Assembly: GCA_020152595.1 (NCBI GenBank)
Contig: JAIGNY010001856.1
Span: forward strand, 2,026,001-2,090,000
DNA length: 64,000 nt
Direction: 5' to 3'
Origin: Chiridota heheva
Lineage: Eukaryota > Echinodermata > Holothuroidea > Apodida > Chiridotidae
Each line of letters begins with the position of its first letter. Position 1 is the stretch's first letter. The position numbers and the translations under genes were made by a program. This document shows positions 8,546-63,750 of the stretch, piece by piece. Under the pieces are notes generated by a model. That model did not search any database, had not been told where the DNA came from, and saw nothing but the letters and a program-made list of their open reading frames with translations.

Positions 8546-8896
8546 ATTCACAATTGCAGGTTCCGGGTAAGCTTAGGACAAGCTTGGGGTAAACTCGGGC
8601 CAGGCTGGTGACAAACTTCTGGGTAATCTTGGAGGTTACAATTTCAGCAGTAAGGAAAAAAGGTGAACTTAAAGATTAAAAAAACACTAGAATGGTAAAT
8701 ACTGTCATGGTTCGCATCCCCATGCAAATTGACACCCATATGACTCACCCAATTTTAAAAATGGCATCCCACACTATGTCCCACATGGCATCCCATTACC
8801 CAGATGGAATCCCATGTCCCAAATGGCATCCTATGTCCCACATGGCATTTTACCATGGTCCACATGGCATTCTACCATATATCCCACCCTACATCC

Positions 8897-11800
8897 TACA
8901 GTGCTAGCGAGAACGAATGTGTCATGCATTCCCACGTTTCACATGGTTCACGCCGTCCATGGAGTATAACCGCGATCGGATTAACTATTGTTAAGAATGC
9001 GGGGAAATCGCGATCAATAAACCAGCTTAAGTTGTCCACTTTAAGTACAGCCTATCTGTGGTTACGAACCAGAAAAATCTGTTTAATGTTTCGCGGGGAT
9101 AATGAGATCAATTCTTTTGTAATTGCGTTTAATCCCCGAGGTTTGCTGTGGCTCGACGCACACAAAAGATTTACAAGGATGTTTAAAAGGGATTAAAGAC
9201 TAAGGCCCTTTGTCAGTTCCGAAATCTCAATAGGTTTAAGACTCCGTGTAGTAGACCCCTAAGCCCGTATTGTGTGTGTGAACTTCATTTCTTTTGTATA
9301 TCTACATGCAATCAATATCGTTTTCTACAGGTCACCTAAGTCCATGATAAACAAAGAAAAAGAGAGGAAAATATTCCCTCTTGTGTTCTTTTTTCATTTG
9401 AAAAATAAAGAAAAAAAACACATTCGCTACGCTTTTTTCTTATACCATAACCAGCTCATCCAGCATTTACAATCAAGGATGTGCTGAACGTAAATAAATA
9501 AGAAATCCCCGAAAAAATCATTATTAATTCAAATTTACCCACTCAATGCCTTCCAAATCCTCATATATTTGACTTCTTGTAATGTGTATTCCATATTAAT
9601 ATCACTTTAAAATCGGGCTTAAAAAATTAAAAGAGTTATCGTAGTACCTGTAGACTTTCCATTTTCCTGCTTTGTCGCAACGTAACTGTGGGCCTACTAT
9701 ACATGTACATAACTTAACAACCAGGTCCCAAAACCCAGGTCCATAGCGATCCAAAATCTATGTTGAAACAATGTGTGTATTGTTCGTTTGACATGTTGGG
9801 CATGGTGAAATTTTCCATTCCCCCGGGCCTGTAAACGCGCATGTTCAGACTCCTTGGTCACACCCATTTTCCTTTTATGGTCACATTTACTCTTGCTGAG
9901 ACAAACTTTTCTCGTACGTACAAGAACCTTGGGCAACTTATCACAATGTATCATTGGGCGTTGATGTAAATAAGTCCCTCGGTGTTCCGAAAATATCCCT
10001 GTATACCGACCCTTTTCTTTACAATTTATTTTGAATATTTCTGCAAAAAGGAAAAAAAACATACATACAATTACCGACTTTCTTTTGCTCTTGACTTTTG
10101 ATAAAATGTATTCTTAATGTATCGTTCTTTTTGACTGGGGGACTTGGAAGGACAACTGGCACTACACACGATTCCTTATAACCACGCCGTAACTTTGTGT
10201 TACGATGGAATTATATTATTTTCTTGCACGTGGCAAATTTCATAAGGTTGCGGGGAATTGCGCAACAAGCCTTCGGCGATAATTATTTCCAGATGTTTAA
10301 GAAATGCCCAGGGCACAGTACAGCACAGGTCACTTGCTTATACTCCCTGCTTCTACTAAACGTGGATGGTTACCATGGAAATTGAAACTGGATGCAAGCG
10401 GTGTGCCTAGATTCTAGAAAATGTAACGATCCCGTAAGATTGACCTATTTTTTAAAAAGAATTTCTACAAAAGCAGGGCCGACAATGGGCTCAACAATTC
10501 AACAATACTTTTGAAGGGGACCAGTGGTGGCGCACGGGCGTAAGTGTGTGTTGGTGTGTGGGAAGGGGGGGGGGGAGGTGGGATTGGGGTAGGGGTGGGG
10601 GTAAGCATTCCCGTATATTTCTCATCAGTGTTACTTGTCCCTCAACCCGTCAAATTAACGTTCACAGTTATTTTCACCAAGTTTTGTGTGGGGGAGGGGG
10701 TGGGGGGACGGTAGCCCAGTGTTTTATTGCTAACTTCTCGACATTTGGAAATATTTTCAAAATTTGATTTTTTATCAGAAGGTATTATTAAGTTGTTCGT
10801 CACCAGCCCGTAACCTCAACAATTGATCCAGAACCGTTACCATTACCAATTAAGTCGCACGTTATATTTCATACAAAAAGGCTTATAACTTTTGTTACAA
10901 GAACATTTCTTTTAATACTCAGATGTCACTATTAATTCATTTTAATTTCCCACCATGTCGTATGGTCAAATTTACCATCACCCTAGGCCTCTTATAACTT
11001 CTACAATCCGGACCAGTTGTCGTCCCCTTCCCAGGGACTTGTAATTCACTACTCAAAATGTGGAAATTTCAGATCCAGCAGGTTACTGCCAACAATTGTG
11101 AGCATGAAACTTTTCCGTAGTTGGACTACTACATGGAAAACACGGAACTGTGCGCACCATTTTTAAGTTATGATTTAAACTACTTTTTTTTGTCAAAAAT
11201 GACTTAATATGAAATTGATAACTTTATTAGAACACCAGGATTTAATGTTTGGTAATTATATTATCCTCAACTGACAATTAAAACAACCATGGATACGATT
11301 GCATTTAGTTTTTAGTTACTTCCAACCCGCTTAATTTAAAGTTCAGCCCGCAGGAGAGAGAGCCGGTACTACTTTTCCTTTTGCAGTTAAAACATCAGTG
11401 CCCGATATTCCGATGGGGATCCCTGGTGCGAATTTTGTGTAGACCAGTAGCATATATTATAGCTATTTGATATTTTGATATATTATTTGCAATATGCTTT
11501 TGACTCAATTTAAAGAGATCGATTTCTTATTTAACTCTTCTTCATTTTTTTTTAAATTTCAATTACTCTTCTGCAGTAGTCATATTTTGATTGCTTTTTA
11601 CGATGATTTTTGAATTCATATTTGTTTTGAAGTCATTTGTAAATTACATTGAACTGCATATAGGTCTACATAATCAAATCGGGAGGAAGTGGATACAGAG
11701 ATGGTGTGATGATATGGGATGGGGTCACGGAGGAGGGGGGGGGGGGTCACATGTTCAAGTTGTTTCCATTAAAAATAATTATTTACGCTTCAAGACACGT

Positions 11801-12609
11801 GTTAGTAGGGAACCAAAAACAATAATTCAACTAAACATATTTGTTAGAAGAAAATAATATTATTTCACGGCGGACAAAACCACTTACATGCAAACAAATG
11901 GAAGTTTGAAATTAGCTGTTATTTTAGAATGACAACTTGTTAGGAAAATCCAGTAATTCATAAAGTGGAAATGGAAGAAAGAAATGCATGTATGAAATAA
12001 AACTCGCTGAGGTTTTTGTATTTATTTATTTCTCTTGACATATTAGTAAAAGCAGTAAGAAGTGTTAGCACTTTTTTGTTTTTTGTATTTCCATCACACA
12101 ACCTGTCTTATACATGCAATAAGTGGGCAACAAAAATATGTATTCTTAAAAGATCATGCATATTGAAAACAAAACAAAAATGTTGAGAATTTGACCAAAC
12201 TATACTCATCTTAAAACGTACCTGCGGAAAACAAAAAAAGAATATTGGGATATGAATTAAGGGTTAATTACGATGTTATACTAACGACCATAATGAAAAA
12301 ATTGCCATTTGTGAATTGAAGTCTCAATGAGTAGCACTACGTTATTGACTAGTGTGTATTACTGCAGGCTTACGTTGTTGTCAGTGGAACTGGTTTGAAA
12401 GGATTAGGTAACCACAACATCCCTGTCAAAAGTTCTGTGGTTAACACTCTCCTGACACGGCAAACCAGCTTAACAGAGTTTTATTGATTAGAGGGGATTA
12501 TTTTCTGGCACAATAGGGAATGCAGGAATCGACTTAACATTACCACCTAATCCTGTCAAGTGCATTCCAAGGTAATGTAAATGACACATTCATTCCCGCT
12601 AGCACTGTA
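8897..12609. mobile_element. 3.7-kb TIR element with TA target duplication
   Basis: The ends are 29-bp imperfect inverted repeats with two mismatches: 8897-8925, starting TACAGTGCTAGCG, and 12581-12609, ending CGCTAGCACTGTA. The outer TA on each side fits a TA target-site duplication, as made by Tc1/mariner-type and some other transposases. Removing the insert joins CCCACCCTACATCCTA to CGTGACATGACATTC, giving continuous minisatellite. The internal 3.7 kb has no frame resembling a transposase. The longest, a 121-codon minus-strand frame at 9697-10062, is unrecognised. I therefore call it non-autonomous or degraded. Superfamily is uncertain: CAGTGCT ends with TA recall Tc1, but the length is unusual for that. 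Confidence 0.8.
10560..10710 (+). other. G-rich tracts, possible G-quadruplex
   Basis: Two plus-strand G-run clusters, 10560-10602 and 10690-10710, each have at least four runs of three or more G. A third lies at 11715-11747. All are inside the TIR element. Quadruplex potential is inferred from run pattern only. Confidence 0.5.
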
Positions 12610-13296
12610 CGTGACATGACATTCTATGTCCTACACTGGATCTCACAATACATCCCACATGACATCCATCCCTATGTCTCACATGGCTCCCTCCCTATGT
12701 CCCCTGTGGCATCCCAACTTATACCATGCATCAGGCTTCTCACCCGTTGCCCCATGTATACCACCTATTAAATCACACCATGTTCCACATGGTATCCCTC
12801 GCCCATTTCCCAATGACATCCCACTTTATGTCACACATTACATCACATCCCATGTCCCACATATGGCCTCCTAACCTATGTCACATATGGTATCCCATCT
12901 TATATCACACATGGTATCCCACTGTGTCATAAGTGGCATCCCACCCTATGTAACACTTGGCTCCTATCCTATGTCCCACATGATATCCATCCGATATCCC
13001 ACATGGCATCCCACCCCATATCCCACATTGTATCCCATCTGATGTCCCATAGCTTCCCACCCTAAGTGACACGTGGTGTCCCACTCTGTGTCACACGTAG
13101 CATCTCACCATGTCCCATATGGCTCCCACCAAATGTCCCACATGACATCCCATCCAATTTCCTAAATAGCATCCCAACCTATGTCACACATGGTATCCCA
13201 CCCCATTTCCCACATAACATCCCATCCGATGTCCCACGTGGCATCTCACCCTATATCCATAGACTCCATAAGCAGTCTCATCCAAGCTATCACAGC
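12610..13296. repeat. Degenerate CATGGCATCCCA minisatellite
   Basis: Right-hand part of the core of copy A, made of units around CCCACATGGCATCCCA with many substitutions and insertions (CCTATGTC, ACATGACATCC). It is much more diverged than the related array at 61138-62300. Open frames here (for example 12626-12874) are repeat artefacts. Confidence 0.85.
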
Positions 13297-13735
13297 TTCT
13301 GATTGAGCATATACTAAGTGTGAAAGTCTGGTCAGTTCATAAACTTATGCAAATGAACTTTAAGAGAAAAGAAAAAGGAAGACGGCAACAAACAATCATG
13401 CCTGATATAACCCTTGGTGCATACCACATGGTATATATCCCGTCCTAAGATTCTATATCCCACATGGCTCCCACCCATGTCCCACGTAGCTCCCATCCAT
13501 GTCCCACATGGCATGCAGTCACAACTAGTCATCCCTGACTGAGCATACTAAGAAAAAAATCTTGTCAGTTCATATACTGTCGCAACTTTATGCAAATGAA
13601 CAGAATAATAAAGGTGGACTTTAATAATCATGCCTAATAAAGCTGTTTCTGAACTAATATTTAAGGATTTTAAACATCAAGTGTTATGAGAGACACTTGA
13701 GGATCTCTAAAGAATATTGGAAATGTATATCATCT

Positions 13736-14012
13736 CAGTTATAATTTGGAGACTTTTTAAGGGAATCTATCTTCAATCTGTCGAACTGGTCTCTGAAAAA
13801 CTTTAATATTTTTATTGGAAATTCCGGCCTTCCATGAGGATATCTCAAGAAATTTAAACACTTTATGAGGAATTCTGAAGAAACTTTTAACATTTTTTGA
13901 GGAATTCTACAACATTTTCTGAGGAAACCCTAGGAAAAACTGTGGACGGCCGGCCGGACGAAATCACTATTACATAGGTTCGCATTATGCTTCGCATTAT
14001 GCTTCGCATTAT
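13736..14012. other. Spacer with weak short repeats
   Basis: Contains several degenerate GAGGAATTCT-like steps (13860-13925), then GGCCGGCCGG near 13950 and three ATTATGCTTCGC steps just before the LINE at 14013. No gene is seen. Confidence 0.5.
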
Positions 14013-14599
14013 GTTTGTTTGTTTGTTTGATGAGGTCTTAACGGCACCACGACAACGAAGGTCAAATTGTGCCTGAGAGGTCAGATCATTTTAGAGGTAG
14101 TAAGGAAAGAGACCAGGGGAAGAATGAGAGAAATTCAAGAACAAAAGCCAGAAAGCTGTGATCGAGAGAGGAGGTGCATGGGAAAAACTAAAAACAGAGT
14201 AGAGAGGGGGTGGAAGAGGAGGATTAAATATGGTTGTAGAGGGATGCATGCTGAAGGAAGGAGACTATTTTATCTGGAGGATTTTTTTTGGAAGAACTCA
14301 GCAATTGAGTTGTGGGGGCGAGAGAAGCTCTGGGAAGGTTGTACAGGGGGCAAGCAAGGAACGTGTTGGATTGTAAGGATGCAGTGGCAATTGTTACAGA
14401 GGGGTTGGGGGAACCAATAAGGAGGTGGGAGTGAGTGAGGTGGGTGTGACCAATTCTAAGGCGGGTAATATGAGCGTTGTCGTCACGAGAAAGGTTGTTG
14501 ATGGTGGATTTGATCGGGATTGTGGGCTGGATAACATGGAGTTTGTTATCAATTTGGAAGTTCCATAAGGTTTGCCAGCGGTCACGAACAAGAAGCGAT

Positions 14600-24369: not shown

Positions 24370-25690
24370 CAATCTATTCATAAGCCACGTCCACCATGCA
24401 GATCAATAAACATGTTCACAACATTAGTATTTGCACAATAATTAACAACATCATCAAAGCAAGTATGATGCCAAACAATTGCTTATTTATCCTATTTCAA
24501 GAATTTGTCAGCAAGCCCCATCTACTCATTAGTATTCATGACATCACTACCACAACATTAGAACATATGTACAGACCATGACCATCTGTGTACCACATAT
24601 AGCATAAATTTGATATATCGTTTATGGTGTTTGCATCAATTAGCACTTTCACGTTACGCCATGTGCACCATGCATATTAACAACACATATTAACACCATA
24701 TCAACATGTACACAATAACCAACAAAAATAAAATGCCCAGTATGATGCAACATGGACATACAGTTGCTTATTTATCACTTTTTTAATTCCACTTTCAGCA
24801 CTGCCCACTTATTAATATGCATGAAATCACCAGCACAAACATTAGGCCATATCTGCAGACCATGGGCTATCTGTTTACCATATAATACATTACTCCAGTT
24901 TACTGTGTTTACAAGCTCTTTTCAGCAAAATCATATCAAGCCCCACTGCAGGGTTCACATTAAGGTGCAGGATTACTGCACATATCATTATTTTCCTGCT
25001 AAAAAAATTGAGGAGGAAGAAGAGAGAAAGGAAGAAGGAAAGGGGGCAGGGGAATTTCACAGAAAAAGAGTAAATAAAAAAATTGAAATCCTCGTGTGAA
25101 CGCTGCCCCCTGCTTACAATGTATATTAATGAAATTCAACATTATTACATCATGAACATGTACACACCAGCTAGCATCATAATTATAACAAACATGAAAG
25201 AAAACAGACATGTGGTTGTTAAAAAATAAACATTTCAAGATTTTAACTTGAAGCCCCTCGCCTGCTCATTAACATGCATGACATCGTCATCAAAAAGGAT
25301 AGGACACATCTACAGACCATGGGCTATCTGTGTACCACATATGAAATTACTCCAGTTTGCTGTTCTTGAAATACTCTGTTTACAAGCTTTTTTCAGCAAA
25401 TTCATATTAAGCCCCACCCACTATGCATATTATTGAAATTCAACATTATTACATCATGAACATGTACACACCAGCTAGCACCATAATTACACCAAACATG
25501 AAAGAAAACAGACATGTGGTTGTTGAAAAATAAACATTTCAAGATTTTTATTTTAAGCCCCACCTACACATTAATATGCATGACATCATCATCAAAAACA
25601 ATAGGGTACATCAATAGACCATGGGCTATCTGTGTACCACATATGACATTATTCAGTTTACCATTCTTAAGATGATCACATTTACGAGCT
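24370..25690. repeat. About 300-bp satellite-like repeat, four copies
   Basis: Diverged copies each carry an ATTAATATGCATGACATCA-like step, then CAGACCATGGGCTATCTGTG and later TTTACAAGCT and AAGCCCCACC. Matching points are 25151 and 25455 (304 bp apart) and 25274 and 25575 (301 bp apart). The earlier copies (24500, 24817) are more diverged. One copy is lengthened by a small MITE at 24949-25105. Confidence 0.85.
24949..25105. mobile_element. Small hAT-like MITE
   Basis: A 157-bp insert relative to neighbouring copies of the 300-bp repeat. Its ends are inverted: CAGGGTTCACA at 24949 and TGTGAACGCTG ending at 25105, with one mismatch. CAGGG-type ends suit hAT elements, which duplicate 8 bp. The flanks CCCCACTG and CCCCCTGC are similar but not identical, so the duplication is only suggestive. 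Confidence 0.6.
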
Positions 25691-25700
25691 GGCCATCGCA

Positions 25701-25766
25701 TACAAACACCCATACACCCACCCACATACACACACCCACATGCACACACACATACACACACACACC
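25701..25766. repeat. CA-rich microsatellite
   Basis: Interrupted (CA)n with CACCCA and CATACA steps. The minus-strand frame over it is a low-complexity artefact. Confidence 0.9.
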
Positions 25767-39511: not shown

Positions 39512-39595
39512 TGTAGAATAGTAAATACCGTCATGATTCACAAACCCATGCAAATTAGTACCCATATCATATGACCCAGCCAATTATAACTAGAT
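39512..39595. mobile_element. Left module of minisatellite-bearing element, copy B
   Basis: TAGTAAATACCGTCATGATT, CCATGCAAATTAGTACCC and ATATCATATGACCCAGCCAA match the left modules at 8682 and 61042. No CATGTCCCACATGG core and no right module follow. The next array (39803) has a different unit. This is therefore a solitary or truncated end. Confidence 0.8.
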
Positions 39596-39802
39596 ATCAA
39601 TGATGTTATAGCTCAACCCATAACAATGCAATAAGAATTGATTGCTTTAATTTTTGTCATATTTGATATTTTTATGATGTAAAAGTTTTATTTGAAGTCT
39701 ATCCCATTTTTGGCCAATTATTCATCATGTTAACAATCCAAGAGTTTCAACTTTCCTGTATGTCTTCCTGTCAGTTTGTTTGGGTTTAATGGCATGCCTA
39801 AT

Positions 39803-40806
39803 AGTCAGGTGATATGCTTAAGTCAGGTGATATGCTCAACAGTCAGGTGATATGCTTAAGTCAGGTGATATGCTTAACAGTCAGGTGATATGCTTAACAG
39901 TCAGGTGATATGCTTAACAGTCAGGTGATATGCTTAACAGTCAGGTGATATGCTTAACAGTCAGGTGATATGCTTAACAGTCAGGTGATATGCTTAACAG
40001 TCAGGTGATATGCTTAACAGTCAGGTGATATGCTTAACAGTCAGGTGATATGTTTAACAGTCAGGTGATATGCTTAACAGTCAGGTGATATGCTTAACAG
40101 TCAGGTGATATGCTTAACAGTCAGGTGATATGCTTAACAGTCAGGGGATATGCTTAACAGTCAGGGGATATGCTTAACAGACAGGGGATATGCTTAACAG
40201 TCAGGGGATATGCTTAACAGTCAGGCGATATGCTTAACAGTCAGGCGATATGCTTAACAGTCAGGCGATATGCTTAACAGTCAGGCGATATGCTTAACAG
40301 GCAGGCGATATGCTTAACAGTCAGGCGATATGCTTAACAGTCAGGCGATATGCTTAACAGTCAGGCGATATGCTTAACAGTCAGGCGATATGCTTAAGTC
40401 AGGTGACATGCTTAACAGTCAAGTGACATGCTTAACAGTCAGGTGACATGCTTAACAGTCAGGTGATATGCTTAACAGTCAGGCGATATGCTTAACAGTC
40501 AGGCGATATGCTTAAGTCAGGCGATATGCTTAAGTCAGGTGACATGCTTAACAGTCAGGTGACATGCTTAACAGTCAGGTGACATGCTTTTAACAGTCAG
40601 GTGATATGCTTAACAGTCAGGATATATGCTTAACAGTCAGGTGATATGCTTAACAGTCAGGTGATATGCGTAACAGTCAGGTGATATGCTTAACAGTCAG
40701 TTGATGTGTTTAACAGTCAGGTGATATGCTTCAGTCAGGTGATATGCTTAACAGTCAGGTGATATGCTTAACAGTCAGGTGATATGCTTAACAGTCAGGT
40801 GATATG
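39803..40806. repeat. 20-bp minisatellite with block variants
   Basis: About 50 copies of CAGTCAGGTGATATGCTTAA. From left to right, blocks carry GGTGATA, GGGGATA (about 40144-40210), GGCGATA (about 40224-40390), GGTGACA (40400-40590) and GGTGATA again. Shortened units lacking CAG or AACAG occur at both ends and at the block boundaries. Confidence 0.95.
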
Positions 40807-50802: not shown

Positions 50803-51240
50803 ATGTTTGTTTGATGAGGGCTTAACGGCACCACGACAGCGAGGGTCAAATTGTGCCTGAGAGCTTAGATCATTCCAGAGGTAGAAAGGAAAGAAAATAG
50901 GGGGAGATTGAGAGAAACACGAGAACTAAAAGCAAGAAAGCTGGGATCAAGAGAGAAGGTGCCTGGGTGAAAAGAAGAAAAAAAATAGAGAGAGAGCGGG
51001 GGAAGGGGGGGGTGGGAGAAGACTAAATATTGTTGTAGAGGGAAGCATGATGAAGAAAGGAGATAACTTTATCCAGAGGGTTTTTCTGGAAGAGCTCGGC
51101 TATTAAGTTGTGGGATGCGTGGGAAGCTCTGGGAAGGTTGTACATGGGGCAAGCAAGAAGAACGTGATGGACTGTGAAGGTGCAATGGCAATTAATGTAG
51201 AGGGTTGGGGAGCCAATAAGGAGGTGGGAGTGAGTGAGTG
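50803..51240 (-). mobile_element. Second 3' end of the RNase H LINE
   Basis: Closely matches 14013-14450: GATGAGGGCTTAACGGCACC, GGTCAAATTGTGCCTGAGAG and CCAATAAGGAGGTGGGAGTG. On the minus strand it holds the C-terminal INCHCTFTVHHVLLACP knuckle, which is intact here, and the 3' UTR. It is 5'-truncated at about 51240. It lies tail to tail with the L2-like 3' end that stops at about 50799, with almost no spacer. Confidence 0.9.
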
Positions 51241-53799
51241 ACCTACGTAACTTATGAAATATGAATTAGAGTATTTGGGAGCCAATTTTAAAATCAACTT
51301 ACAATATACATATACCTAAATAGTATCCAACGTGATTGGTCCGAAAAAAAAGTCACATACTTTTACCAACAAATGCAAATCAATGAGAGAAATCCTCTGC
51401 GTCCTATTGTGACTTCAATAATCCTAGCATACCCATGCTTCATGGACTGCACTATTGTTTGTACAGGGTTTACTGTGCTTTGTATACTGTGTGAAGAGGT
51501 GGATTTTCTTCTTCTTTTTTGTTGCTTTGCACTCATTTGCTCAAGTTCATATAACCATAAATAATACAAAGGCACAACATTTTTGTGCAACAGATAATAC
51601 AAAACAAGCAACCAAGCAACAAGTCAAGAGAAAATTCCTTTCCAGGCATACTAAATAATCAAGATTAGTCTGCATGGATGCAGAGAACTTTTCAAAATAT
51701 GGTCTAAGTACGTTTTTAACTCCAATCATAGTAGGAATTTTATTTCTTTACTTAGATTTATCTATATCAAACTTGGTAAGCAATAATAATGAATTCAGAG
51801 TTTAATCAAAGCCAACAACAGATAAAATATTTATTCTTGACAGCATCAAGTTAAAATTAACCTTAACTTTGAACCAGTTTTGAAGTGCTGCCCAAACATA
51901 TCTTACTATTACGCAATAACAGAAAAGATGAGTACCGTCCTATCTGCAGGAGTTACAAAAGGATCAAAGGTCATTGTTACGTTTCTCGATTTTGAATAGA
52001 AAACAGTTACATCCATTCTAAACTGAAACCACCTCAGCTTTATATTGTGACCCCCAGGTTGTCACTTAGCTTATTTCCTGTATTTTGCTGAGCTTATAAC
52101 TGTTTTTTAATTGTAAATGAGCCCCGTAATGTTTGGGTCATGTGATACTCAAATGCGAAACATAAGTTCAGGTATCTACAGTCTAAAACAAAACTGTTGG
52201 GACACTTACAAGCTTACCGTGAAAGTTTGCATGTTATTCAAATATTCATGTACAGCTATTTTCAGCCCCTCCCCCCCCCCTCCCCACCTCTCCTCTATCC
52301 ATTCCCCCTTTCAATGTTGTCAAAACCAAAATATTTTACTGAAAATACAGAGACATGGAAAGCATTTACCAACATTTTCCACTCATTTCACCAACAATGA
52401 ATGGAGGCATGCCAACAAGTTTTGTCAAAGACTGTGTGAAAAAATATGAGGCAAAACAGGGTTTTTTTTGCTAAACATCTGAGGGGCTTTTTTAATTATG
52501 TGGATAGTGTTTAACTTTATTATGAAAGTTTGGATCCATCAATCAGGGGGAGGCAAGGTACAATTCTGGTACCTGAAACTTAATACAAAGCTAAAAAATT
52601 TCACCATGAAAATAGAGTAAAGGTCACTGTACTTAATGAGACTTTCTATAATCTGTGGTAAAACATTTGACAACATTTTTATCTTGAGAAGAAATTCTTT
52701 TTCGATTTGTGTATGACTTCATCAGACTATTTTCACTTTGTCAATTTTTAGTCACTACATCTTCAACACAAGAAACGTATAAATTCACTTTACTTTGCTT
52801 AAATAAAAGACAAAATTACCGACCAAAAATTTGGTAAATCAGTTGGCGAAGGCGAGAGTGTGGCGTACATCTAATTTAAACATACAATCTAACAGTTTTT
52901 GTTATTTACAAAATCGTGTCATATGTATTATTTTATCAAATGTTACTAAACTGTTACTTTTTCATCAATGTCCTTGCTATCCGCTATTCTTGTTACCCCC
53001 TTTTCTTGCACGGTATTTTTCATAATAAGATCAAAAAAGCAATATCAGCATGTCGAAACTACTTTTTGTTGACATGCTGGAATCTGATAATAAAAAAAAA
53101 CTAGAACTGTTGGAAGGACAGTATGCTCGACTGTTCAAAGCTAGTATAGCAAATGGGCTCATAGAGGGAAGTACAGAAATAGTAGCAGGGGCAGATGATT
53201 TCAAATTACTTGAGCTTTGAAAGATGCACTTACATTTTCATTTGCATTACAAGCTTTAAAACATCTGAGTTTTCCTAGATATTTTAAGACAAAAAAGCTC
53301 AAGTAACTCAGAAAATATGTAAAACCTAGCAGTCTTTATAACTACAACACCTCTTTTAGTTCTATCAATTGAATAATAAAGAAAGGACAGGCCCTGACTT
53401 GCCAATGTAAATGGAAGAATGCCATTCAACCCCCTTTCCAACCAATACCCTCCCCCAGCCCTACACATTCCCAGAACTACATACATCTGGATTGTAATAC
53501 AACTTTCAATTTAAGAAAATATGTGTGTCAAGCAAAGTCAAACAGTATGAAAAATGTGCAATAACATTAAAGCAAAATTATGCAAAACAGTATTGCTTAA
53601 TGTATGACAAATTAGACATTGGAAACGTTACAAATCCCCTCACTGCTAATAATGCATATTCCAGACTGTCCCACATTCCACTTTAACCTGTCCCAAATGT
53701 CATCCCACGTCTATACTCCATGCAATTACACTTGAAAACAAGATACTGTATGTCATTCCACCACTTGCATGACCCACATGCTATCACAAATGAAATCCA
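51241..53799. other. Unique sequence, no gene seen
   Basis: No recognised frame. A C/T-rich tract lies at 52266-52315. Words near 52920-53030 (CCCTTTTCTTGCACGGTATT, TTTTTCATAATAAGAT) recur diverged at 54360-54425, suggesting an old dispersed repeat. Confidence 0.45.
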
Positions 53800-54172
53800 G
53801 ATGACATCCCACCAAATGCCATTCCACCCTGTTCCACATGCCATTCCGCCCTGTTCCACATGTCGACACACCCTGTTCCACATGCCATTCCGCCCTGTTC
53901 CACATGCCATTCCGCCCTGTTCCACATGTCGACGCACCATTCCACATGCCAACCCACCCTGTTCCACATGTCGACGCACCCTGTTCCACATGTTGACCCA
54001 CCCTGTTCCCATGCCATTCCACCCTGTTCCACATGCCATTCCGCCCTGTTCCACATGTCGACACACCCTGTTCCACATGCCAACCCACCCTGTTCTACAT
54101 GCCAATCCACCCTGTCTAACATGCCAACACATCCTGATATCCCACTGCACCCTGCCCTACATACAATTCCAT
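53800..54172. repeat. 22-bp minisatellite related to the 61-kb array
   Basis: About 16 copies of units such as CCACATGCCATTCCGCCCTG plus TT, mixed with CCACATGTCGACACACCCTG and CCACATGCCAACCCACCCTG types. The CACATGCCATTCCA word resembles CACATGGCATTCCA of the 19-bp array at 61138, so the two may share origin. Open frames on both strands are artefacts. Confidence 0.92.
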
Positions 54173-54503
54173 CCTGTCACACATGACCTTATCCTAATTC
54201 CTTCAGCTACTTTATCATCATGTCATCTTCTACCCCACATTCTGCTTATTGTTTATATTTCCCAAACCCCTAATTAACATTCTTTAGAAGGGAGGAAACT
54301 TTTATTTGCATCTTTATTCATGGAAAGACAAACATTTTTATTGCTATTTTTTTTATTTCATCAAATTTTACTGAACTTGTCCTGGCTACCCCTTTTCTTG
54401 TATGCTATTTTCCATAATAAGATTAGAACAGGGGTGTCCCAATGAGTTTTGTCCAAGATTGTAGCTTGATCCAGAAAGGGGTAGGGATGTCACTTACAAA
54501 AAG

Positions 54504-59830: not shown

Positions 59831-61041
59831 AGAATTATCTCATGGCAAAAAAAGTATCATCAAAAAAATCATGTCTTAATTATGTTCTTGGAAACAGTTC
59901 CTTAGAACATGTTGTGATCTTACCATGGATCCACTCACGTGGCTGCATTCTTTGGTCAAGCATATCTCGAATTTGCTGTCAGTAATACAATACAGTTAAA
60001 TCTGATGTATGATACTAGCATTTATTTGAGGGTGTGGATAACATTTTGTGAGAGTATTTGAATGTCAGATTACAAAATTTTGTTGCAAAATCATATTAAA
60101 CCACTTGACAGTGTGACTACCATTTTCAAAGTGCCGTCTGCAATATTCAAGTCAATGCAAGATTGGTACAGTAAACAGCACTGCTAGCATGCACAAGGCT
60201 GGTGCAGTGGAACTGAACTACTACAGTCAGCTCAGGTACTGCGGCTACAGCAGCTACAGCAATTTCATGATAGATAAAGTTGCATGAACTTACAAATGTT
60301 CAAACTACATAATGAGATGAACATCATCAAGTAAAAGTGTTGCAGCTTAGAAATAAAGTTTTCAAATGTTTTTTTAAAGGGCTTAGTTCAGGGGTCAAGC
60401 CAAAAGATACAAAATGGTGAAGAAAGCATTCAAATATTTCATTTCGTTAAGGACATATTTTACTTTAAAGTTTGGCATCGTTTGTGTAGAAACAACTGAA
60501 ATCAGACTAGTAATGATGTCATAGCCTCAGATTCCTCAGTCTTTAGGTATTCTATCATATTTTGTCCCGTGTTTTTTTTAAACCATGGCATATGTCAAAA
60601 TAGTAGTACAACTGAATTTAGGATGGGTATTTATAATATACCACCTGAAGAAAGTTTGAGGAAACAATTTAATGGAAAAATTTAAACAAAGTTTCTATAA
60701 AATACATTCACAATTGCTAAGAATGTGAGGATGAAGATACCAACTTTCCATAGTAGACTTACATGTACTACACCAGTCATTTATATACACAGATAAGACA
60801 GAGCTTTAAACTTGAATAACTCCTTAACGGAAAGAGATTTTTAAACACTTTCATCATCATTTTGTTTCTTTTGAAAACCTCTTTCAAATAAGATAAACTT
60901 CCTTGACCCCTTAACTAAACCTTTAATGGAATATTTAGTCTAATTTGAATACAAGCAGGGAGATAATTGTTTCATCCTTCAATTCGCATTTGGTTTGTAA
61001 CATGTTAGTAAGTGCAGAAATACTTAATAAAATATAAGACA
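59831..61041. other. AT-rich unique sequence, no gene seen
   Basis: No recognised frame or RNA gene. A few CTACAG steps lie near 60222-60260. Confidence 0.5.
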
Positions 61042-61137
61042 ACTAGAGGGTAAACACCGTCATGGTTCGCATGCCCATGAAAATTCACACCCATACCATA
61101 TGACCCAGTTGATTAAAAAAATAACAACTCACACTAA

Positions 61138-62300
61138 GTCCCACATAATATTCCATGTCCCACATAATATTCCATGTCCCACATAATATTCCATGTCCCA
61201 CATAATATTCCATGTCCCACATGGCATTCCATGTCCCACATGGCATTCCATGTCCCACATGGCATTCCATGTCCCACATGGCATTTCATGTCCCACATGG
61301 CATTCCATGTCCCACATGGCATTCCATGTCCCACATGGCATTCCATGTCCCACATGGCATTCCATGTCCCACATGGCATTCCATGTCCCACATGGCATTC
61401 CATGTCCCACATGGCATTCCATGTGCCACATGGCATTCCATGTCCCACATGGCATTCCATGTCCCACATGGCATTCCATGTCCCACATGGCATTCCATGT
61501 CCCACATGGCATTCCATGTGCCACATGGCATTCCATGTCCCACATGCATTCCATGTTCCATGGCATTCCATGTCCCACATGGCATTCCATGTCCCACATG
61601 GCATTCCATGTCCCACATGGCATTCCATGTCCCACATGGCATTCCATGTCCCACAGGGCATTCCATGTCCCACAGGGCATTCCATGTCCCACAGGGCATT
61701 CCATGTCCCACAGGGCATTCCATGTCCCACATGGCATTCCATGTCCCACATGGCATTCCATGTCCCACATGGCATTCCATGTCCCACATGGCATTCCATG
61801 TCCCACATGGCATTCCATGTCCCACATGGCATTCCATGTCCCACATGGCATTCCATGTCCCACATGGCATTCCATGTCCACATGGCATTCCATGTCCCAC
61901 ATGGCATTCCATGTCCCACATGCCATTCCATGTCCCACATGGCATTCCATGTCCCACATGGCATTCCATGTCCCACATGGCATTCCATGTCCCACATGGC
62001 ATTCCATGTCCCACATGGCATTCCATATCCCACATGGCATTCCATGTGCCACATGGCATTCCATGTCCCACATGGCATTCCATGTCCCACATGGCATTCC
62101 ATGTCCCACATGGCATTCCATGTCCCACATGGCATTCCATGTCCCACATGGCATTCCATGTCCCACATGGCATTCCATGTCCCACATGGCATTCCATGTC
62201 CACATGGCATCCTATGACCCACATGGCATCCCATGTCCCACATGGCATTCCATGTCCCACATGGCATCCTATGACCCACATGGCATCCCACCTTATGTCC
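61138..62300. repeat. 19-bp hairpin-forming minisatellite
   Basis: About 60 copies of CATTCCATGTCCCACATGG. The first copies read ACATAATATTCC, a short central block has CACAGGG for CACATGG (61653-61720), and a few units have GTGCCAC. Each unit holds the inverted repeat CCATGT-CCC-ACATGG. With a period of 19 (not a multiple of 3) and a near-symmetric unit, all six frames remain open for over 330 codons. They encode 19-residue repeats and are not genes. Confidence 0.97.
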
Positions 62301-62404
62301 ATATACAGTCACATCATGTCACACCCCAGACTAAGCATACTAAATAAAAAAGTCTGGTCAGTTTATATACTGTAGGAACTTTATGCAAATGACCACAATA
62401 ATAA

Positions 62405-63643
62405 ATGTAGAGTTTATTCTGAATCTGAATCGGTTAAGTCGGCAAAAATCCTTCAAGAGGACATGAACGCCAACCAAGCGTAAAAAGTATAAGTAGAAAA
62501 TATAAAAAAACTAGTTAGCAATACAAGCGTTAGTATGTTTAGCTTTGAAACAGTTGTGACTTGGTGCATGTACAATGTCTGACGGTAAAGCATTCCAATC
62601 CTTTAGTGTGTGAGGGAAGAAAGAGTGTTTATATACATTCTTTTTAGCATAGGGAACCTGGAAATTAAGGTCATGATTATTTCTTGTATTAGTTCTGACG
62701 GTGGGGATAAGTTCATCTTTATTGATGGCGACAAGATTGCTATTGATTTTATATAGCATATGTAGCCGAGTGTTGTATCTTCTTGTTTTAAGCAGGGGCC
62801 AATCTAATTTATGAAGCAGGCTTTTTACACTAGATTTATAAGAGTAGTCTGCCATACAGAACCTGGCTGCTCTCCTTTGAATAGATTCAAGTTTATCCAC
62901 ATCGCACTGGTGATGGGAGTCCCAGACTGCACATGCGTACTCAAGTACTGGCCTGACTAGTGCTTTATAAGCAGTGGGTTTAACGTCAGTGGGACAGTTT
63001 GAGAGGTTACGTTTTAATAGGCCACGTACAGAGTTAGCTTTCTTGGTTATGTTATGTATATGTTTATCCCATCTAAGTTTATTATCAATTTCAACACCTA
63101 GGTATGGGTGGGAGTTGACATGTTTTAGTGGCTGGTTGCATAAGGTATAAACAGGTGAATTAAAGCATTTCTGAGAGGAAATTGACAAGATGTAGCATTT
63201 AGAGGGGTTAAAATTCATTTGCCATTTGTTTTGCCATTGTTCAAGTTTGTTAAGATCATCTTGGAGGATTTGTTGGTCAGAGGGGTTATTAATTGTTCTG
63301 TACACAAGGCAGTCATCAGCAAACAGTCTAAGTGTGCTGTTTATATTATCAGGGATGTCATTTACATATAAAAGGAAAAGTAATGGGCCCAAGACAGTAC
63401 CTTGTGGTAAACCGGATAAAACCTGTTTAGAATCAGAGATTTCACCATCACAGACAACACGCTGGATGCGGTTGTTGAGGAATGATGCAAACCAGGCCAG
63501 GAGATTTCCATCAAAGCCATAGGCGGAAAGTTTGGATAAAAGGCGCTGGTCTGGGACTTTATCAAAGGCTTTTGAGAAGTCAAGAATAGCCATAGAGACG
63601 TTACTGTTTTGGTCAATTTGTTTAGAGATATCATTTATTCCAT
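62405..63643 (-). mobile_element. 5'-truncated CR1-like LINE inside copy C
   Basis: A minus-strand insertion within the right module of copy C. The 3' end is at the left, where the minus strand reads GATTCAGATTCAGAATAAAC. The 5' end is truncated near 63643. Joining the flanks restores the AATAATAAAG...TTTAATAATCATGCC order seen uninterrupted at 13598-13645. TTTATT lies at both edges (about 62416 and 63632-63645) as a probable short target duplication. It carries an intact RT frame. Confidence 0.88.
62511..63640 (-). CDS. Reverse transcriptase of a CR1-like LINE (5'-partial)
   Basis: Minus-strand frame, open from the truncation point near 63640 to a stop at 62511; first ATG at 63593 gives 360 residues. 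Numbered from that ATG: ILDFSKAFDKVP (motif A, Asp5), SGLPQGTVLGPLLF (60-73, motif B), RLFADDCLVY (89-98, motif C, both Asp), FNPSKCYILS (128-137), HPYLGVEIDNKLRW (162-175), YKALVRPVLEYACAVWD and IQRRAARFCMADYS (thumb), FFPHTLKDWNALP (C-terminal block). Catalytic residues are intact and I see no frameshift, so the copy is young. The endonuclease and first frame are absent, so it cannot move alone. Its product would copy element RNA at a nicked target. CR1/L2 group by motif; exact clade not decided. Confidence 0.92.
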
Positions 63644-63750
63644 TTATTATTAATCATGCCTGATACAACTGTTGGTGCCCAAATATTTTGAAGAATTATA
63701 AATCTCAAGAGCTGCAAGAGAGACTTGAGGATCTCAAAACTCAGACAGAT

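Follow-up and report, generated by a model that had tools for sequence, protein, structure and literature searches.

The minisatellite-carrying repeats of this locus very probably form a family of non-autonomous rolling-circle transposons of the Helentron type (HINE). Within the HINE kind, the family is set apart by its core, which is unusual in consisting of tens of units of 19/24 bp. The dispersed element consists of a left module, the core and a right module in fixed order, and in the window (the whole stretch of 64 kb that was analysed) it is located on the minus strand. Since the element is read on this strand, the "left" module is its 3' end. From 5' to 3', it starts with a T-rich end, followed by a subTIR, an inverted repeat, a weak GTCY microsatellite and a body of approximately 400 bp; then come the 19/24 bp core, the 3' subTIR, a palindrome and CTAG, after which TT follows. 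Its length was 1.49 to 3.70 kb in 17 genome copies with a match reaching near the 5' end, among which the right-module match L147 was counted.

Copies in the window and their nested insertions

Three copies (A, B and C), all in the same orientation, are present in the window. None of the three is complete: the 5' tip of A is gone, C is both truncated and interrupted by a LINE, and B is a solo 3' end. Their parts and an empty site discussed below are the following:

61043-61121, minus strand: copy C, 3' terminal module (the earlier "left module") with 3' subTIR, palindrome and CTAG end
61122-62303, minus strand: copy C, central minisatellite, 19 bp unit repeated about 61 times, with a 24 bp-type unit at either edge
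62303-62416, minus strand: copy C, part of the 5' module next to the core (the earlier "right module")
62417-63646, minus strand: copy C, nested LINE fragment foreign to the element, with an RT ORF at 62511-63593 and the probable duplication TTTATT
63647-63735, minus strand: copy C, further piece of the 5' module up to the truncation; the terminal ~280 bp including the 5' subTIR are missing
8687-8763, minus strand: copy A, 3' terminal module
8762-8896, minus strand: copy A, core beside the 3' module, mostly 19 bp-type units
8897-12611, no strand assigned: copy A, insertion of a foreign 3.7 kb element that has 29 bp TIRs and is accompanied by a TA duplication
12612-13289, minus strand: copy A, core of diverged 24 bp units
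13290-13423, minus strand: copy A, incomplete and diverged second copy of the 5' module within the core
13513-14013, minus strand: copy A, 5' module with the 12 bp microsatellite TTCGCATTATGC; tip with the 5' subTIR lost
39513-39594, minus strand: copy B, solo 3' terminal module
25190-25673, no strand assigned: paralogous empty site for the insertion of genome copy L130, within a 304 bp tandem repeat

In line with what had been proposed from the letters of the window, A and C share both modules around a tandem core, with scores far above those of shuffled nulls. Compared with the left module of C, that of A scored 78 and that of B 68, while in 20 shuffled 64 kb windows no score exceeded 34. 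The right module corresponds to 13513-13715 in A and to two pieces in C (62303-62416 and 63647-63743), which scored 120 and 75 against A with null bests of 34 and 33. This module had been described as "about 90 bp or more" long. Its similarity is indeed far above chance, but its true length is approximately 530 bp, since the genome copies revealed about 280 bp more than first read. In A it extends to 13997-14013; in C it ends at 63735, and no continuation was found up to 3 kb past the window. As claimed, B carries the left module alone; the 4 kb examined there contain neither a core nor a right module.

Copy A owes its length of about 5 kb to a 3.7 kb TIR element, which sits inside its core at approximately 8897-12611. 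The inverted ends of this element (TACAGTGCTAGCG...) match at 27 of 29 bp and are accompanied by a TA duplication; 10 of its 33 listed ORFs were scanned and gave no Pfam match. In C, the right module is split at 62416/63647 by a minus-strand LINE fragment, whose ORF matched RVT_1 at E 3.4e-22. The halves of the module adjoin each other in the genome copies, which confirms the LINE as an insertion.

A duplicate of the 5' module inside the core, like that at 13290-13423 in A, was also found in L130, L131, L139 and L147, i.e. in four of the 18 genome copies with a right module. The duplicate in A is 71% identical to the module of C and 63% identical to A's own, so that it does not stem from a recent event in A. 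The 12 bp motif TTCGCATTATGC constitutes a second microsatellite, expanded in A and in L145.

The array of copy C (61138-62290) contains 60.9 copies of the 19 bp unit, 39 of which are identical. In the core of A, most units are of 24 bp and diverged, and units of 19 bp occur close to the left module. The unit adjoining the 3' module is of the 24 bp type in 18 of 19 cores. When eleven cores of 1.0 to 1.5 kb were compared, the in-register alignment was better than the best of three rotations in 51 of the 55 pairs. Since the cores align best in register, we conclude that the array moves whole, as a part of the element.

Tandem repeats are abundant in this region: masking for them covered 21.8 of the 64 kb, about one third of the window. 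There are 29 arrays with a period of at least 10 and at least 4 copies, most of them without a recognised carrier element. A search for other arrays with dispersed flanks yielded a single flank match (44594-44722 in L129), which has no array next to it in that locus. The 22 bp array D (53640-54200) was rejected as a further copy, as neither module is present; its units are weakly similar to the core, with a score of 53 as compared with at most 41 in the null. That minisatellite units are palindromic throughout the window was not supported (29 arrays, combined P 0.41). An array of 51 units of 20 bp (39794-40806) begins approximately 200 bp from the solo module B and may be a swapped core. Two further repeats lie next to family copies. 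One, dispersed at 14014-14561 and 50804-51238 (81% identity) and also found in three of the genome loci examined below, abuts the right end of copy A. The other, a possible MITE with inverted ends of about 70 bp (60401-60926), is located just left of copy C and is partly matched at 1106-1202 and in three of those loci.

Genome copies and insertion sites

The genome search covered 1.10 Gb in 3744 contigs. At least 41 matches were obtained for the left module (40 scored of 200 first-look candidates) and at least 40 for the distal right module (40 scored of 1272 candidates), spread over many contigs and both strands. Apart from copy C itself, the left module had 40 matches, of which we examined the 20 best-ranked, chosen by their likeness to C. 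The core was present in all 20 loci, and in 17 of them the right module followed on the same strand beyond 0.7 to 3.1 kb of core (16 by the window query, 17 by the fuller query); in L126, L135 and L136 it was absent from the stretch examined. The co-occurrence of the modules, which the sequence-only reading had left to a genome search, is thus seen in most of these best-ranked loci.

In all 20 loci and in A, B and C, the similarity is lost at one and the same left base, between AA and CTAGAACGGTAAATACCGTCATGGTTCGCATGC, so that the left terminus CTAGAACGGTAAATACCGTCATGG is sharp and the flanks are unrelated. This bears on the possibility that nothing moved and that a single minisatellite locus was duplicated long ago, segmentally or in tandem. 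The single orientation of A, B and C would fit such a history. However, in the window the flanks align at 45-54% identity, as opposed to 72-78% for the left modules and 79% for the main right modules; segmental duplication was rejected because the flanks are unrelated. Together with the matches on many contigs and both strands and with the empty sites of one copy, this makes an immobile origin scarcely credible, and the claim of a mobile element carrying its own minisatellite is borne out.

The empty sites belong to L130. Its joined flanks match across the joint in neighbouring 304 bp repeat units of its own locus, and a paralogous empty site with 78% identity is found at 25190-25673 in the window. 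The 304 bp tandem repeat (25119-25725 in the window) recurs at L130/L123 and L131, and was an insertion target for one family copy. For the other ten of the 11 flank chimeras, no convincing empty site was found in approximately 0.23 Mb (examined loci and window); for L137, the chimera match in L144 extends across the joint by about 20 bases only.

At the joints, TT follows the 3' end in 14 of 15 copies and the 5' side is a T run. A constant target duplication was absent from these 15 copies: eight had direct matches of 4-6 bp close to the joints, mostly A-rich and variable in position, and seven had none. Of the checks proposed earlier, that for target duplications gave no constant duplication and that for empty sites was positive for L130 alone (one of 11 chimeras). 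These data are also relevant for a reading as a cut-and-paste MITE with subterminal inverted repeats, the older classification of pearl elements. Short inverted repeats are indeed located close to both ends, but the ends are asymmetric, with palindrome and CTAG at the 3' end only, and a constant target duplication is lacking. We therefore regard a MITE as very improbable.

Among the copies, the median module identity was 91% at the 3' end (n=14) and 87% at the 5' end (n=12, with L140 and L145 dropped), and the closest pair of 5' modules was 91.5% identical. Judged by these values, the family looks old rather than freshly active among the copies compared.

Terminal structures

The ends were analysed in genome copies. 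Seven of 21 loci were left out of the end counts: L126, L135 and L136 (no right module), L133 (match ends early), and L128, L134 and L138 (5' tip lost or unclear). L128 was retained in the 15-copy set used for joints, CTAG and TT. The right end reads ...ACATAGGTTCGCATTATGCTTCGCATGCGAACCAAAAA or, as a variant, GCATGCTCACCAAAAA, which on the minus strand gives the 5' end TTTTTGGT..., a T run followed by GGT. In the 14 both-ended copies, the 11 bp subTIR pair is perfect in three, has at most one mismatch in eight and at most two in 11; against shuffles it reached P<=0.05 in 13 copies, L141 being the exception (P 0.22). The 5' subTIR variant GGTGAGCATGC differs from the usual 3' subTIR by two mismatches. 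Beside the 5' subTIR, the inverted repeat GCGAACC was counted by eye in 14 of 15 copies with at most one mismatch (in L145 it is not in the stretch shown); an automatic count of 13 of 14 partly matched the neighbouring microsatellite. An inverted repeat at this position is of the DINE-1 and oyster type, as described in PMC4067079 and PMC7492417. The microsatellite of the 5' flank is short and eroded; 14 copies showed 0-4 GTC-type words per 70 bp, a count without a shuffled control. At the 3' end, the palindrome ACGGTATTTACCGT was found in 14 of 14 copies with at most two mismatches, and the element terminates with CTAG in 13 of 15 copies, with CTGG in one and with CTAC in one.

When the window copies were considered alone, no conserved subTIR and no constant duplication were detected, and the right-end hairpin was no better than in shuffles. 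These negative results were misleading because C is truncated and A lacks its 5' tip, and they were reversed by the genome copies.

Classification and proposed transposition

As described in PMC4067079 and PMC7492417, HINEs have subTIRs and an inverted repeat, a microsatellite, repeats in the centre and a palindrome at the 3' end, and they insert into T-rich targets without duplicating them. The present family shows those of these features that were examined, the microsatellite only weakly. Cg_HINE of Crassostrea gigas (PMC7492417) shares with our family a 5' subTIR of 11-12 bp, a complementary inverted repeat, a GTCY-type microsatellite (weak in our family), a variable spacer, central tandem repeats in one orientation, a 3' subTIR, a palindrome and T-rich insertion without target duplication. 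Its repeats differ: they are described there as mostly 140-180 bp monomers in mostly five copies or fewer, the longest array having 29, whereas the 19 cores of the present family hold 29-160 units of 19/24 bp. With HINE/DINE-1 elements as described in PMC4067079, subTIRs, 3' palindrome, T-rich termini, no target modification and optional tandem repeats are common, and some Culex HINEs are said there to consist approximately half of simple or tandem repeats; in this comparison by description, the CTAG end distinguishes our family. Bivalve pearl elements also have central tandem repeats between flanks, but these resemble the ~166 bp Cg170 monomers, unlike the present units; pearl elements were re-categorised as non-autonomous Helentrons (PMC7492417). 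Thus, the Helentron-type ends of the genome copies agree with the earlier hint at pearl elements or Helitron derivatives, and the family, then thought impossible to place, is placed as HINE-type.

A non-autonomous canonical Helitron would have a 3' hairpin with CTRR, insert between A and T and depend on a Rep/helicase without endonuclease. In line with this, the 3' end is a hairpin followed by T, CTAG and then T, CTAG or CTGG being present in 14 of 15 copies, and the endonuclease which separates Helentrons from Helitrons was not found in a single ORF examined for it, located downstream of a helicase. However, the palindrome lies one base from CTAG and not approximately 11 as in canonical Helitrons, and the 5' end is TTTTTGGT... 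rather than TC, so that of the Helitron ends considered earlier (TC...CTRR with a hairpin) only the 3' part was recovered. Moreover, 11 bp subTIRs, inverted repeat and GTCY-type microsatellite are Helentron/HINE features in the descriptions of PMC4067079 and PMC7492417. A canonical Helitron is therefore improbable, though less so than a MITE.

More tentatively, the HINE-type family could be a structural intermediate, in which a Helentron-type 5' end is combined with a 3' end of the Helitron/proto-Helentron type and the long minisatellite of 19/24 bp units is a constant part that is transposed together with the ends. For Phytophthora, a Helitron-like proto-Helentron with 5' TT and 3' CTAG is described (PMC4067079). 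We consider this possible, with the balance against it; if true, one element family seeded the 19/24 bp minisatellite across the genome.

The genome search for Rep gave 11 matches from 16 candidates, ten with internal stop codons, and one Rep locus has a PIF1-like helicase downstream. At E<=0.001, the modules were not seen in 13 Rep-region loci, in stretches shorter than whole elements. Since no Rep locus is tied to this family, the mover can only be inferred. We propose that a Helentron Rep/helicase supplied in trans would nick at the element ends, that the whole unit including the core would be copied by rolling-circle replication with the 3' palindrome as a putative terminator, and that the new copy would join between two T residues. 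Core length would then shift after insertion by slippage or unequal exchange, which would explain why the 61 units of C form a homogeneous array while the array of A is decayed.

Database searches were also performed. The window had no Rfam match at gathering score, and weak matches near two modules (up to E 10) were taken as chance. Four patterns gave no match in viral contigs, and phage records gave none. A 16-base pattern occurring in 117 prokaryote-contig stretches was likewise taken as chance; all 80 listed bear prokaryote titles. Among the papers listed for the core motif, none was related as judged by title, and the titles and abstract openings of the literature found contain no description of the family.

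The family represents a clear case of rolling-circle-type ends moving entire minisatellite arrays to new sites. As the register of the arrays is kept from one copy to the next, it is possible to trace how they expand and decay once inserted. The element also accounts for the origin of one minisatellite in a repeat-rich genome.
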